A stretch of 64,000 nucleotides of DNA from Peribacillus sp. ACCC06369 (GTDB taxonomy: Bacteria > Bacillota > Bacilli > Bacillales > DSM-1321). This document shows positions 17,156-24,179 of this stretch, piece by piece. The notes below the pieces were generated by a model, which worked only from the letters and a program-made list of their open reading frames with translations, was not told where the DNA came from and searched no databases. Positions within the stretch are counted from its first letter, which is position 1. Every line of letters starts with the position of its first letter. Position numbers and translations under genes: made by a program. The stretch covers positions 3,844,001-3,908,000 of the forward strand of contig NZ_JAUCEN010000002.1 of NCBI RefSeq assembly GCF_030348945.1, in the 5' to 3' direction.

Positions 17156-18874
17156 TTAATCATTTCTCTTTAAAAACGCTAATAATCCATCCGTATCCCT
17201 TGCATTAAGAACCGTTGATTCTTTAATCCAGCCCTTTTTGGCCGACGAGACCCCAACAGGCATATGATCAAGCATATCGATGCTGTGGGCATCTGTATTG
17301 ATAACAATCGGAACGCCTGCTTCCTGTGCCTTGCGCAGATGGGGAGGTGCCAAATCCAATCGGTTCGGATTCGCATTCAATTCCAAGGCGGTATTCGTTT
17401 CGCGTGCCAGTTCGATCAGCATCTCTATATCGACATCATATCCGGCGCGTCTGCCGATAATCCTTCCCGTTGGATGGGCGATTATGTCGACATGCGGATT
17501 ATTCAGAGCCGTTTTTAAGCGCTCCATGATCGTTTCCCGCGGCTGTGAAAAGCTTGAGTGGATCGATGCGATAACCAAATCCATCTCTGCAAGCAGCTCA
17601 TCGTCATAATCAAGTGTCCCATCAGGAAGTATATCCATTTCAATCCCCGAAAGAACGGTAAAATCATCGTATTTTTCATTCATTTCATGGATGATCCGTT
17701 TTTGTTCCCGTAAACGTTCCACGGTCAAGCCGTTCGCAACTTTCAAATATTGCGAATGATCGGTTATGGCCATATATCGATAACCTTTTGCACGGCACGC
17801 TTCAATCATTTCTTCAATGGTATGAGCCCCATCACTCCATGTGGTATGCATGTGCAGGTCACCTTTGATGGCCTCCAAAGACATGAGAGGTTCATTTGCA
17901 TCATAATGCTCTACTTCCGTTCCGTCTTCACGCAGTTCTGGGGGAATGAATGGAAGACCAAAATGATTATAAAAACGTTCTTCTGTTTCAAACGTCAATA
18001 CCTCACCGGTTTCAGCCACTTCCACCCCATATTCGCTGATTTTCTCACCGCGATCTTTAGCCAGCTGGCGCATTCGCACATTGTGATCTTTCGAACCGGT
18101 AAAATGATGGAGTGTCGTTATGAATTCCTTATCCTTCACGATCCGGAAATCGACGGAAATATCATATTCATAATCTAGCACGACCGATACTTTTGTATCA
18201 CCCGCTGCAATCACTTGCTTTATGCCCTTTAATGCAAGCAGTTGATCCTTAACTTCTTCGGGATGATCTGTCGAGATGATGAAATCGAGGTCCTTGATCG
18301 TTTCCCTCATACGCCTGATGCTGCCGGCTCTGGAAGAACGGATGATGTATTCCATGTTAGCAAGGGCCGTTTCAATATCATCCGCAATCGGCCTCATGAA
18401 GGCAAGGGGCAGCCGATCAGGCCTTGAACCTGCCTCGGCAATCGCAGACAGGATCTTCTCTTCCGTTTTTTTGCCGAAACCGGCAAGCGCCGCGACCCTG
18501 CCTTCTTCACAGGCGAGTTTAAGATCATTCACATCATTTACATGCAGCTCTTTATGAAGCTTGGCAATTTTCTTCCCGCCCAAACCTTGAAGCTGCAAGA
18601 GCGGAATCAGACCTTTTGGCACCTGCTCCTGAAGCTCTTCAAGTACAGTCGATTTCCCCTCATTCATATACTCTTCGATGACGGATGCCGTTCCTTTCCC
18701 GATTCCATTTAAAGCGGTAAAGTCTTCGATGGCCGTCAGGCTCCGGTCATCTGTCTCCAAGGCGCCTGCTGCCTTTCGGAAAGCTGAAACCTTGAACGGG
18801 TTCTCTCCTTTTAATTCCATATATATTGCGATTTTTTCTAATAATTTAATGATATCTTTTTTATTAATCGTCAT
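17156..18874 (-). CDS. polX: DNA polymerase/3'-5' exonuclease PolX
   Basis: 572-aa family-X polymerase for gap filling in base excision repair. N-terminal helix-hairpin-helix units (LNGIGKGTA, LQGLGGKKIAKL, LAGFGKKTEEKI), the nucleotidyltransferase core with GSIRR and DLDFII aspartates, then a C-terminal PHP exonuclease domain (GDLHMHTTWSDG, ITDHSQ, NTDAH). The ATG at 18874 lies just after GGCGGTG; an in-frame GTG at 18883 is the other choice. Starts the polX-mutS2-yshE unit. Confidence 0.95.
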   Translation of the reverse strand: MTINKKDIIKLLEKIAIYMELKGENPFKVSAFRKAAGALETDDRSLTAIEDFTALNGIGKGTASVIEEYMNEGKSTVLEELQEQVPKGLIPLLQLQGLGGKKIAKLHKELHVNDVNDLKLACEEGRVAALAGFGKKTEEKILSAIAEAGSRPDRLPLAFMRPIADDIETALANMEYIIRSSRAGSIRRMRETIKDLDFIISTDHPEEVKDQLLALKGIKQVIAAGDTKVSVVLDYEYDISVDFRIVKDKEFITTLHHFTGSKDHNVRMRQLAKDRGEKISEYGVEVAETGEVLTFETEERFYNHFGLPFIPPELREDGTEVEHYDANEPLMSLEAIKGDLHMHTTWSDGAHTIEEMIEACRAKGYRYMAITDHSQYLKVANGLTVERLREQKRIIHEMNEKYDDFTVLSGIEMDILPDGTLDYDDELLAEMDLVIASIHSSFSQPRETIMERLKTALNNPHVDIIAHPTGRIIGRRAGYDVDIEMLIELARETNTALELNANPNRLDLAPPHLRKAQEAGVPIVINTDAHSIDMLDHMPVGVSSAKKGWIKESTVLNARDTDGLLAFLKRND

Positions 18875-20068: not shown

Positions 20069-21028
20069 ATGTCCCATGTAGTTTTACTTATCAGCCCTGA
20101 ACAAATAAAGGCGATGAAATCCCATTATTCTTCATCCTTGGCCGCCAAGCTGCCGCCGGGAAGCATCTTTTCCGCAAAACCGCCGCTATGTACGGTGACC
20201 GCCTATAAATCCGGAAAGGTACTCTTTCAGGGTAAGAATGCCGAACAGGAAGCGGTAAAATGGCAACAAAATACTACTGCTGTGGCTCCAAAGAAAAAAA
20301 CGGCTTCATCTGCATCAGTAAACGTCCATCGCTATTCACCACCTGCAAATATCGGAAACATGTCAGTGATTGGTTCCGATGAAGTCGGAACAGGAGACTA
20401 TTTCGGTCCGATCACCGTCGTGGCCGTATATGCAAAAAAGGAGCAACTCGCCCTGTTGAAGGAACTTGGTGTCCAGGATTCCAAAAATCTGAAGGATCCA
20501 CAAATCATCGAAATTGCCAAACAAATTAAGGATGTGGTGCCATTCAGCCTGCTCACATGCGACAACCCGAAATATAATACGCTGCAGGCAAAGGGAATGT
20601 CACAAGGAAAAATGAAGGCACTCCTCCATAACCAGGCTATCAAGAATCTCATGCAAAAAATCCAGCCGGAAGAAGCGGAAGCGGTCCTTATTGATCAATT
20701 CGCTCAACCAGATGTATTTTTCAATTACCTAAAAGGCCAAGAACTCTTTCAAGCCAATGCCACCTATTTATGCACAAAAGCGGAAGGCATACACCTTGGA
20801 GTGGCAGCCGCTTCCATCCTGGCCCGATATGCATTCGTCAAACGCTTTGACTTGCTGAGTGAAAAAGCCGGATTCAAAATCCCTAAAGGTGCCGGCTTTG
20901 CAGTCGATGAAGCGGCCGCAAGATTGATTCATGAGAAAGGAATCGAATCATTAAACGAATTCACGAAAACCCACTTCGCCAATACAGAAAAAGCGAAGCG
21001 ATTATATCAACAGAAATATCATAAATAA
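20069..21028 (+). CDS. rnhC: Ribonuclease HIII
   Basis: Removes RNA from RNA-DNA hybrids. The 319-aa protein has the N-terminal TBP-like substrate-binding domain (to about residue 90) that marks HIII, then the RNase H fold with the catalytic GSDEVGTGDYFGPI (Asp-Glu) and DSKNLKD motifs, LIDQFAQPD and a C-terminal DEAAARLI. TTAGGAG precedes the ATG by 10 nt. Lone plus-strand gene between zapA and pheT, closed by a strong terminator. Confidence 0.95.
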   Translation: MSHVVLLISPEQIKAMKSHYSSSLAAKLPPGSIFSAKPPLCTVTAYKSGKVLFQGKNAEQEAVKWQQNTTAVAPKKKTASSASVNVHRYSPPANIGNMSVIGSDEVGTGDYFGPITVVAVYAKKEQLALLKELGVQDSKNLKDPQIIEIAKQIKDVVPFSLLTCDNPKYNTLQAKGMSQGKMKALLHNQAIKNLMQKIQPEEAEAVLIDQFAQPDVFFNYLKGQELFQANATYLCTKAEGIHLGVAAASILARYAFVKRFDLLSEKAGFKIPKGAGFAVDEAAARLIHEKGIESLNEFTKTHFANTEKAKRLYQQKYHK

Positions 21029-21034
21029 GGGAAA

Positions 21035-21068
21035 GCGGCTGACCTTCCGGGTACAGCCGCCTTTTTTT
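21035..21068 (+). terminator. Terminator after rnhC
   Basis: GCGGCTG (21035-21041) pairs with CAGCCGC (21054-21060), followed by seven T's on the plus strand. Confidence 0.88.
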
Positions 21069-21089
21069 GTTTAATGAAGAACGTGATAT

Positions 21090-21720
21090 ACTCGTGAATT
21101 TGCTCCATTTACTCGTGAATTTGCACATTTCACTGAATTCGAGACATTTACTCGTGAGTTTGCGTGATTTACTCGTGAGTTTACGCACTTTACTCGTGAG
21201 TTTACGCACTTTACTCGTGAATTCGATACATTTACTCGTGAGTTTACGCACTTTACTCGTGAGTTTACGCACTTTACTCGTGAATTCGATACATTTACTC
21301 GTGAGTTTACGCACTTTACTCGTGAGTTTGCTCCATTTACTCGTGATTTTGCACATTTCACTGAATTCGAGACATTTACTCGTGAATTTACTCACTTTAC
21401 TCGTGAATTCACGCCATTTACTCGTGAATTTGCACATTTCACTGAATTCGAGACATTTACTCGTGAATTTGCACATTTCACTGAATTCGAGACATTTACT
21501 CGTGAATTTACTCACTTTACTCGTGAATTCACGCCATTTACTCGTGAGTTTACGCACTTTACTCGTGAATTCGAGACATTTACTCGTGAGTTTACGCACT
21601 TTACTCGTGAATTCGTGCGTTTTACTCGTGAGTTTACGCACTTTACTCGTGAATTCGAGACATTTACTCGTGAATTCACGCCATTTACTCGTGAATTCGC
21701 ACGTTTTACTCGTGAGTTCA
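21090..21720. repeat. Tandem array of 31 units of about 21 bp
   Basis: Consensus unit TTTACTCGTGAGTTTACGCAC, phased on ACTCGTGA. I count 31 units from 21090 to 21720. Four (near 21131, 21359, 21440 and 21480) lack CGT and are 18 bp; the rest are 21 bp, and the last is cut short. Second halves come in a few types (GTTTACGCAC, AATTCGATACA, AATTCGAGACA, AATTCACGCCA, AATTTGCACA), some repeated in blocks such as units 5-7 and 8-10, a sign of recent duplication. Because all lengths are multiples of three, a heptapeptide frame is open on both strands (plus LLVSLRT type; minus TSKVRKL type). No ribosome site precedes either. The array lies between two terminators that point toward each other. Confidence 0.95.
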
Positions 21721-21723
21721 TAA

Positions 21724-21758
21724 AAAGACAGCTTCCCTGGATTCAGGGAGCTGTCTTT
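21724..21758 (-). terminator. Terminator after pheT
   Basis: AAAGACAGC-CCCTG pairs with CAGGG-GCTGTCTTT (21724-21758); the minus strand ends in T's. It abuts the repeat array. Confidence 0.88.
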
Positions 21759-21764
21759 CTGGTT

Positions 21765-24179
21765 TTATCCTCTTAGTTCTGCGCCAGCTTTTTCTTTGAC
21801 GGCTTCAAGCACTTTTTCATGTGCTTTTGTAATGTCCTCGTCCGTTAGCGTACGTTCCGGATCGAAGTATTTCAGTGAGTAGGCAATGGATTTCTTGCCT
21901 TCCTCCATTCTGTCACCCTCGTATAAGTCGAAGATGCTTACTTCTTTCAGTAGTTTGCCGCCAGCTTCTTCAATAATATCCTGAATGTCCCCGGCTTTCG
22001 TAGCTTGGTCCACAACGAGCGCGATATCGCGTGTTGTTGATGGATAGCGCGGAATGGTTTTGTAGGCAATCGGCGCGACTTCGGCTTCGGCCAATGCTTT
22101 TAAGGAAAGTTCGAAAATGTATGTTTCTTTAATATCCAAGTCTTTTTGGACGGTTGGGTGCACTTGGCCGATAAAGCCTATCACATCACCATTCAAAAGT
22201 ACTTCCGCTGTCCGTCCTGGATGCATGTCGTTGATTTCCGCTTGGCGGTAACTGATTTGATCAGTTAATCCAAGTGTATCGAATAACGCTTCGATCACGC
22301 CTTTGGCTACAAAGAAATCCACTGGTTTCTTTTCACCTTGCCATAGGTGCGACTCCCATAGGCCTGTAATGGCTCCAGCAACATGTTCTTTTTCTTCAGG
22401 TAGTTCTTGTTCGTCCTGCTTAAAGAAAACCGAACCGATTTCATACAAGGCTAGTGAATCAATTTGGCGGGCATTGTTATATTTCACGACTTCCAGCAAT
22501 TGAGGAACGATGCTCAAACGCAATTGGCTCCGTTCTTCACTCATTGGCATTGCTAAACGAATGGATTCTCTAGCTTCCAATGCGAATTGGGACGCTTTTT
22601 CCTGGCTTGTCAGTGAATAGGTCACCGCTTGATAAAGGCCTGCGCCTTCAAGTGTACGGCGTGCTTTCCGCCGTTTAATTTGATAGTCAGTCAATTGGCC
22701 TGGAGTAGAAGAACCGATCGGCAGTGTAGCGGGAATGTTATCATATCCATATAAACGTGCAGCCTCTTCAACTAAATCAGCTTCAATCGTAATATCACCA
22801 CGGCGCGTCGGGACAGTGATGGTGAACGTTTCATTGTCAAGTTCGACGCCGAATTGAAGGCGTTTGAAGATGGACTCTACAACTGACACGGTCATGCTTG
22901 TTCCAAGAAGTGTGTTGATTTTTTCAAGTGTGATGCTAATGACCGCAGGTTCCATTGTCAATTCATCCACTTCTGCCGCTCCTTGTAAGACTGTTCCGCC
23001 AGCATATTGTGCAATCAATTGTGCTGCACGTTCTCCAGCTTCACGTACACGGGCCGGATCGACGCCTTTTTCAAAACGGGCACTTGCTTCACTGCGTAAG
23101 CCATGGTCTTTAGAAGCTTTACGAACTACTGTACCTGCAAAATATGCACTTTCAATAATGATGTTCGTTGTATCATTTTTCACTTCTGAATCCGCTCCGC
23201 CCATTACACCAGCTATTGCAACAGGCTCGCTTCCATTTGTGATCACTAAATGGTCTGGTGTCAAAGTGCGTTCAGCTTCATCCAACGTTACGATTTTTTC
23301 TGCATCTTTCGCTCTGCGGATGACGATTTCCTTTGACCCAAAGCGGTCATAATCAAAGGCATGTAGCGGTTGACCATATTCAAGCAAAATGTAGTTCGTG
23401 ATATCGACCACATTATTATGAGGTCGGATACCTGCAGACATTAGCCGAGTCTGCATCCAAAGTGGTGAGGGTCCGACTTTAACATCTTTAATGATTTTTG
23501 CAATGTATATCGGGTTATCTTCTTTCGCTTCCACTTTGACACTGATATAATCAGAAGCTTTTTCAGCTGCCTCTTCTTTCTCGACAACCGGCCATTTCAC
23601 TTCCCGGCCTAGAATGGCACCCACTTCGTATGCAACACCAAGCATGCTTAATGCATCAGAACGGTTTGGAGTCAGTCCAAGTACAAGCACTTCATCACTT
23701 AATCCGAGTTCCTCCAATGCATCATTCCCCACTTCCACATCATTAGGGAAAACGAAGATGCCTGTAGCATAATCCTTGGACACGAGCTTGGACTCGAAGC
23801 CCAATTCTTGAAGCGAGCAAATCATCCCGTGCGATTCTTCTCCGCGAAGTTTCGCTTTCTTGATTTTGAAATTACCTGGAAGGACTGCGCCAACAGTAGC
23901 GACTGCAACTTTTTGGCCTTTATCGACATTCGGTGCCCCACAGATGATTTGAACGGGATTTTCGGCCCCGATATCAACTTGGCATTTATTCAATTTATCC
24001 GCATTTGGATGCTGTTCACGTTCAATGACATGCCCGATGACGACTCCCTTAAGCCCTTCACTTTTCTTTTCTACCCCTTCAACCTCAATGCCGCTTTTCG
24101 TGATTTTGTCTGCTAGCTCCGTCGCATTGATGCCTGAAAGGTCAACATAATCTTGTAACCATTTATATGACACAAACAT
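21765..24179 (-). CDS. pheT: Phenylalanine-tRNA ligase beta subunit
   Basis: 804-aa beta chain of the alpha2-beta2 PheRS; contributes tRNA binding and the editing site. N-terminal tRNA-binding (EMAP-like) domain ([21 protein letters not shown]), B3/B4 editing domain, B5 ([21 protein letters not shown]) and C-terminal ferredoxin-fold anticodon-binding domain ([12 protein letters not shown]). ATG after an AGGAGG site. 28 bp after pheS, so one operon under the T-box. Confidence 0.97.

Follow-up and report, generated by a model that had tools for sequence, protein, structure and literature searches.

A dispersed, position-conserved intergenic minisatellite family with helically phased composition in Peribacillus

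The tandem array between rnhC and pheT

Analysis of the window, i.e., the whole 64,000-nucleotide stretch of Peribacillus sp. ACCC06369 DNA considered here, revealed a tandem array of short repeats between two genes. This array raises the question of whether it is a structural DNA element, a protein-binding array, or a neutral satellite, the three options named in a preliminary description made from the sequence alone. The array (positions 21090..21720, plus strand) was called by TRF with a period of 21, 30.4 copies, and a span of 21089-21715. Splitting at anchors, starting at position 21090, resolved it into 31 direct units (TTTACTCGTGARTTYNNNNNN on the plus strand): 26 units of 21 bp, 4 units of 18 bp, which start with ACTGAATTC, and a terminal partial unit that continues into the pheT terminator. 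TRF and anchor splitting thus upheld the 21-bp, 31-unit array of the preliminary description.

The left neighbor is rnhC, encoding ribonuclease HIII (20069..21028, plus strand; TIGR00716, 313 bits with a cutoff of 161.2), and the right neighbor is pheT, encoding the phenylalanine-tRNA ligase beta subunit (21765..24179, minus strand; TIGR00472, 912.1 bits with a cutoff of 402.65). The two genes converge, and their identities were confirmed by these models. On the plus strand, the gap is bounded by the two stop codons, one with its last base at 21028 and the other with its first base at 21765. The array had been described as filling this whole gap; it occupies only the portion between two hairpins (about 21030-21066 and 21718-21762). 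The hairpin 3' of rnhC (about 21029..21066, plus strand) is followed by a T-run and is terminator-like, and the 75-base flank folds at -28.1 kcal/mol; a consensus terminator scan did not list it and gave only a weaker minus-strand hairpin at the rnhC end. The terminator-like hairpin and T-run 3' of pheT (21718..21762, minus strand) adjoin the 3' end of the array and were found by sequence, fold, and the consensus terminator scan. Because a terminator-like hairpin separates it from either gene, the array sits between two terminators.

Blocks of several units are duplicated within the array, as had been claimed. Units 5 to 7 and units 8 to 10 are identical at 63 of 63 bases, and units 13 to 16 differ from units 19 to 22 at 1 of 81 bases. 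The recent growth proposed for the array is supported by this block duplication and by a copy number that varies widely among relatives at one place.

Several known classes of sequence were considered. It is very improbable that the array codes for a repeat protein or works as RNA, such as a structured transcript at the 3' ends of mRNAs. Two open frames (218 and 226 amino acids) do span the array, and the predicted fold of the plus-strand RNA from 21150 to 21450 beats 100 of 100 shuffles (z, -2.65). Against this, the minus-strand fold is ordinary (z, -1.32; 10 of 100 shuffles equally good), the array is located beyond both terminator-like hairpins, and promoter-like sites numbered 0 versus 1.5 expected. 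Over all loci of the genome, 114 of 707 simple unit lengths are frame-breaking and only 14 of the lengths other than 21 bp are frame-keeping; on account of the frame-breaking lengths, a protein-coding array was rejected. Rfam returned no family at the gathering score, and the sole subthreshold match (MIR395; 19.7 bits versus a gathering score of 56; E value, 0.59) was taken as chance.

A phage or plasmid origin was rejected, since neither the 72,556 plasmid records nor the 50,697 phage records contained a match and an exact-pattern search of viral contigs was likewise negative. CRISPR arrays consist of identical repeats separated by unique spacers of tens of bases; unlike in these, the variable stretch here is 6 bp long and recurs inside an array. 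Tandem direct units and a variable copy number, both found here, are features of a minisatellite (VNTR). The statement that no named element has this unit is in line with the collections of plasmids, phages, and viral contigs, Rfam, and the open-access literature searched, among which none was found.

A phased repeat family on the chromosome

A DNA search of the same genome revealed 58 matches, every one of them on the 5.47-Mb contig, and thereby ruled out a single-locus curiosity. A pattern of two neighboring cores matched 407 times genome-wide (298 forward and 109 reverse) versus 0 times for the reversed pattern. The array is therefore genuine and not a product of chance. All 407 matches fall in the fetched loci and the window, with 0 in 800 kb of further, evenly spread samples of the genome, so that the catalogue is complete for the two-core pattern. 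After merging, with at least 3 units per array and up to 2 mismatches in the 11-bp anchor (556 of 801 units being exact), the family comprises 34 loci with 801 units, 18.3 kb in total, and 3 to 87 units per locus. The search of the unit against its own genome that had been suggested thus returned 34 chromosomal loci, including the array between rnhC and pheT, which is one locus of a dispersed, position-conserved intergenic minisatellite family. The intergenic position was judged by simple longest-ORF gene calls. A higher-order layout was seen at L085:4035-5618, where one intergenic region holds seven blocks of 4 to 7 recognizable units repeating every 160 to 290 bp. At L094:7248-8001, a 256-bp unit that includes a terminator-like hairpin occurs three times; a short TTTACTCGTGA-family array lies about 2 kb away.

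The consensus over 579 units of 21 bp is TTTACTCGTGARTTY followed by six variable bases. Within the 22 arrays with at least eight 21-bp units, pairs of units mismatch at 1 to 5% at positions 3 to 11 of the core TTTACTCGTGA, a value biased by the fact that the 11-bp core itself belonged to the search pattern, versus 33 to 45% in the spacer (positions 16 to 21). Positions 13 and 14, outside the search pattern, are likewise low (8% and 3%), and positions 1, 12, and 15 mismatch at 22%, 40%, and 30%. Between loci, the spacers mismatch at 0.58 to 0.69 (positions 16 to 20). The GC content of the spacers is 56 to 93% in all 34 of the arrays or subarrays with at least four 21-bp units versus 34.2% in intergenic DNA. 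Units of 19 and 20 bp make up 108 of 707 simple spacings.

The preliminary description had noted perfect palindromes in some units. The sequence CACG, the partner of CGTG in the core, follows position 11 in 67 of 579 units versus 9.2 expected under independent columns, an excess that was set aside as evidence because the units of one array are mutual copies. Palindromes do occur in some units; a palindrome is not a defining trait of the family, which consists of direct repeats and in this respect lacks the palindromic stem-loop of BIME/REP elements.

Composition within the unit is helically phased. The mean GC contents of successive unit segments are 0.08, 0.66, 0.17, and 0.75, i.e., half-turn blocks that are AT-rich (ATTTA and ARTTT) alternate with GC-rich blocks (CTCGTG and the spacer) every 10.5 bp. 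In the GC profile of the 579 units, the second harmonic (10.5 bp) holds 40% of the power and the first (21 bp) holds 0.6%; harmonics 8 and 9 are high, too (18.5% and 18.7%). A permutation test for phasing gave a P value of 0.0023 for the consensus of the array between rnhC and pheT and values below 0.05 for 78% of 108 family arrays in the fetched loci, many of which are orthologous or overlapping. Measured in 63-bp windows, the array median of the phased amplitude corresponds to the 98.9th percentile among 159,520 genomic windows. By array or subarray, the percentile of the median ranges from 87.8 to 99.98, the array at 4.842 Mb reaching only the 87.8th. The phased amplitude of the real arrays is 0.371 versus a mean of 0.186 (95th percentile, 0.338) after permutation of columns.

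Placement and conservation in relatives

Comparison of the 34 arrays with background gaps (at least 100 bp, from the 800-kb sample and the window; genes taken as the longest ORFs, with ORFs inside arrays omitted) revealed a bias in placement. Convergent gaps are overrepresented (14 of 34 arrays versus 78 of 433 background gaps; P = 0.0027), and divergent gaps, which hold promoters, are avoided (1 of 34 versus 104 of 433; P = 0.0023). For tandem gaps, there is no difference (19 of 34 versus 251 of 433).

The arrays have a preferred orientation. With dnaA at position 337 and a change of sign in the GC skew between 2.62 and 2.70 Mb, the TTTACTC strand is directed toward the origin at 25 of the 34 loci (P = 0.009). 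In six complete relatives, with arms defined by half the genome length from dnaA, the orientation agrees at 43 of 53 places among the matches listed, many of which are orthologous and nonindependent. At the 19 tandem-gene loci, the arrays are antisense to the genes in 13 cases and sense in 6, and at the convergent loci the orientation matches replication in 9 of 14. The left arm holds 25 of the 34 loci (P = 0.010). The region from 2.35 to 3.74 Mb of the own chromosome (G000; 1.39 Mb, including the terminus) has 0 family arrays; the probability under uniform placement is about 0.001 for this region, which was picked post hoc.

A search of relatives, likewise suggested in the preliminary description, revealed the family, by a relaxed-core pattern, in 21 of 36 genomes of the genus, with copy numbers differing at the same place; the other 15 are without the pattern, and the control gave 0 of 36. 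A wider search matched 22 of 61 genomes, namely, 21 in the genus, counting the own genome, and 1 in another genus, this last match being weak (E value, 9.7e-8). In a named collection, at least 120 stretches matched, and the 80 listed all bear the name Peribacillus or Bacillus sp.

The place after rnhC was compared using an rnhC match in 36 genomes, from which 30 loci were returned. In 14 of these 30 loci, ACTCGTGA units follow rnhC, with 1 to 27 exact cores and a constant orientation relative to rnhC. Three more loci (L054, L056, and L058) carry variant-core arrays, and in L044 and L057 one or two degenerate units are left. Ten more distant loci (L059 to L068) have 0 ACTCGTGA units after rnhC; among these, L061 and L062 contain TTTACTCACC-like relics and L066 contains 20-bp units with another core. 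Since 14 of 30 orthologous loci have the core after rnhC and 3 more have variant-core arrays, an assembly artifact is unlikely. In L055 (G025), more than 1 kb of other sequence without an array follows rnhC, and the stretch ends short of pheT.

Among 28 match loci of other genomes (L009 to L036; up to three alignments per locus, with some loci being the same place twice and L029 being the match in the other genus), both flanks match an own array locus in 21 cases. One flank matches in L020, L021, and L034, and neither flank matches in L012, L018, L026, and L029. Because 21 of the 28 loci match on both flanks, most of these places are common to several species. The places are largely kept in relatives, and copy number and the 6-bp spacer turn over.

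Core use was compared by counting neighboring pairs. GTGA-GTGA pairs account for 335 of 419 pairs in the own genome and 96 of 112 in G007, for 0 of 115 in G013, 0 of 194 in G017, 0 of 10 in G011, and 1 of 11 in G034, and for 12 of 24 in G025, where core use is mixed. In the loci of G013, G017, G011, and G034, CGCC, CGCG, CACC, or CGGG mostly replaces CGTG, with few CGTG cores in G034. By these counts, the core varies between subclades more than inside genomes, and one subclade uses another core in most or all pairs.

Explanations and arrays with other cores

The family, its positions, its phasing, the contrast between core and spacer, and the copy-number differences were observed directly. As described in PMC6379681, GC percentage in the flanks of the E. 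coli gyrase motif oscillates with a period of 10.75 bp, which the authors ascribe to wrapping around the C-terminal domains of GyrA. The scores of BIME-2 elements for this motif are above average, and some of these elements, at least, are bound by gyrase in vivo. According to the same paper, consensus-bearing, well-phased substrates are processed more slowly by gyrase, and the gyrase signal in BIME-2 goes up, not down, when transcription is blocked; the slower processing and the rising signal disfavor a simple role in relief of transcription-generated supercoils.

Judged against this description, the arrays have the helically phased GC content over tens of base pairs of a gyrase site, with a period of 10.5 bp versus 10.75 bp in E. 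coli. The E. coli motif spans 130 bp, is degenerate, and has a cleavage region at its center, whereas the present arrays are tandem and have a near-fixed core. Like BIME-2/REP elements, they are clustered intergenic repeats; in contrast to these elements, whose units are palindromic and 30 to 37 bp long (PMC2884548), they are 21-bp direct repeats with few palindromes and a putative link to gyrase. With bacterial VNTRs and the "small dispersed repeats" (about 20 bp) described in PMC2884548, they share short, tandem, dispersed units of variable copy number; they differ in places kept across species, a kept core with a variable spacer, and, as measured in the present arrays, helical phasing.

On this basis, the preferred reading, given a probability of about 40%, is that the arrays may be phased DNA wrapped or bent by gyrase or a nucleoid protein, BIME-2-like in working without being BIME-2. 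The two-turn AT/GC phasing would favor bending or wrapping of array DNA toward one side, and each array would be a docking platform for a DNA-wrapping protein, with DNA gyrase as the first candidate and HBsu or another nucleoid protein as the second. Sites at 3' ends and in convergent gaps, where positive supercoils are expected, would leave promoters undisturbed; the array would hold or anchor supercoiled DNA, and slippage or unequal exchange would change its length with the phase retained. Such a platform is favored because the flanks of the gyrase motif are GC-periodic and BIME-2 scores high, and a two-turn unit would extend the signal over hundreds of base pairs. Anchoring would fit better than fast relief because phased substrates slow gyrase and the BIME-2 signal rises with transcription blocked. 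The phasing of composition is the most telling evidence for the wrapping reading, which is also supported by spacers that are GC-rich despite differing in sequence, by the frequent two-turn periods and combined 10-bp phasing of arrays with other cores, and by the placement of the arrays; wrapping, the identity of the protein, and any benefit are suggested by it and the other features above. Counting against wrapping are the 15 of 36 genus genomes without the pattern, the 19- and 20-bp units, the low percentile of the array at 4.842 Mb, the arrays with other cores (described below), of which just 4 of 16 reach significance singly and 4 are unphased, and the high harmonics 8 and 9. Since the E. 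coli gyrase motif is degenerate, the near-fixed core would require common ancestry, homogenization between loci, or another factor.

Of the three options initially proposed, a structural or protein-binding element is the best fit, given that composition is phased at 10.5 bp and that core and spacer contrast, and a neutral satellite is a serious rival that is quite possibly correct. Under neutrality, or slight harm, an ancestral unit was amplified by slippage or unequal exchange and survived where it was least harmful, at 3' ends and in convergent gaps, and the two-turn period is a product of the mechanism and not of function. The near-exact block duplications, the spread in the number of exact cores (1 to 27) at a single orthologous place, the avoidance of divergent gaps, the absence of the pattern from 15 of 36 genus genomes, and two-turn arrays without phasing (L301 and L318) all speak for it. 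It explains turnover and placement but not the phasing or the stability of the core relative to the spacer, the latter subject to the search-pattern bias; nor does it predict that spacers of differing sequence stay GC-rich or that the core is largely switched in one subclade. A dedicated, putative protein that reads the core, with the 21-bp spacing placing sites on one helix face, is an unlikely explanation. It would account for the nearly fixed core, which gyrase alone does not, and is consistent with the low-variation core next to a variable 6-bp spacer, the difference in core between subclades, and the preferred orientation; it leaves the GC-rich spacers and the common period and phase of other-core arrays unexplained, and core use in G025 is nonuniform. 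Plasmid iterons and partition arrays, which such sites would resemble, consist of direct repeats about two helical turns long that are conserved in part, and they serve a single plasmid locus whose Rep or Par protein is known. The present units share the two-turn direct repeats and the conserved part; in contrast, they occupy 34 chromosomal loci rather than a replication or partition site of a plasmid or phage.

Should gyrase or a nucleoid protein prove to wrap the arrays, the family would be the Gram-positive equivalent of BIME-2, would provide natural phased substrates for testing how phasing sets gyrase position, and would exemplify selection that acts more on helical periodicity than on the bases themselves. 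Neutral arrays would instead be useful for modeling how minisatellites turn over and as good markers for typing Peribacillus.

Arrays with other cores were surveyed as well. In the fetched loci, which were mostly chosen for carrying the TTTACTCGTGA family, the period of noncoding arrays with other cores is in most cases 20 to 21 or 40 to 42 bp, the exceptions being 14, 19, 52, 91, 103 to 106, 167, 172, and 256. Tandem repeats were also sampled in 800 kb taken evenly from the own genome and 400 kb of six others. The even 800-kb sample (at least 2.5 copies and a stop-free span below 100 codons) held 8 arrays outside long open frames, 5 with periods of 19, 20, or 41 and the rest with 11, 14, and 167. 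For phasing at about 10 bp, 17 representatives were hand-picked after the array results had been seen, and some may be distant relatives of others; with one representative per family and the TTTACTCGTGA family left aside, the combined P value was 1.8e-4. Singly, only 4 of the remaining 16 representatives gave a P value below 0.05, and phasing was absent in 4 (L258, L301, L318, and L266). Omitted were copies or likely relatives (L022, L066, L154, L159, L176, L177, L201, L245, L251, L256, L261, and L093) and probably coding arrays (L272, L295, and L314); L277 stood outside the phasing test.

Of the 249 genomes searched in the order, 10 contain TTATGAGCGA arrays, distributed over 7 of 105 genera; the control gave 0. 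Their units are 20 bp in most of those listed and 21 bp in most of G100, the pattern admitting 18 to 22 bp only. These arrays were seen at L257, L256, L251, L066, and L259, among other places. A broader proposal, which is doubtful, is that Bacillales may contain "wrapping satellites" with a replaceable sequence (TTTACTCGTGA, TTTACTCGCCA, TTATGAGCGA, TATTCGACC, and others) and a fixed two-turn AT/GC unit, kept by a DNA-wrapping protein to buffer topology or anchor the nucleoid where genes end.

Another array family, whose units measure about 20 bp and have a TATTCGACC- or GGTCGAATA-like core, was seen in the own genome and relatives (L297:3440-3577 and 17760-17912, L229, L093, L159, and L176). 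At L151:834-3023, a tandem repeat of about 91 to 106 bp containing CCAGTCGAAGAGTTTTCTTTA occurs in 21 copies and is not a two-turn repeat. Units resembling it are present at L134:5505-6360 and perhaps in L166 and L243.
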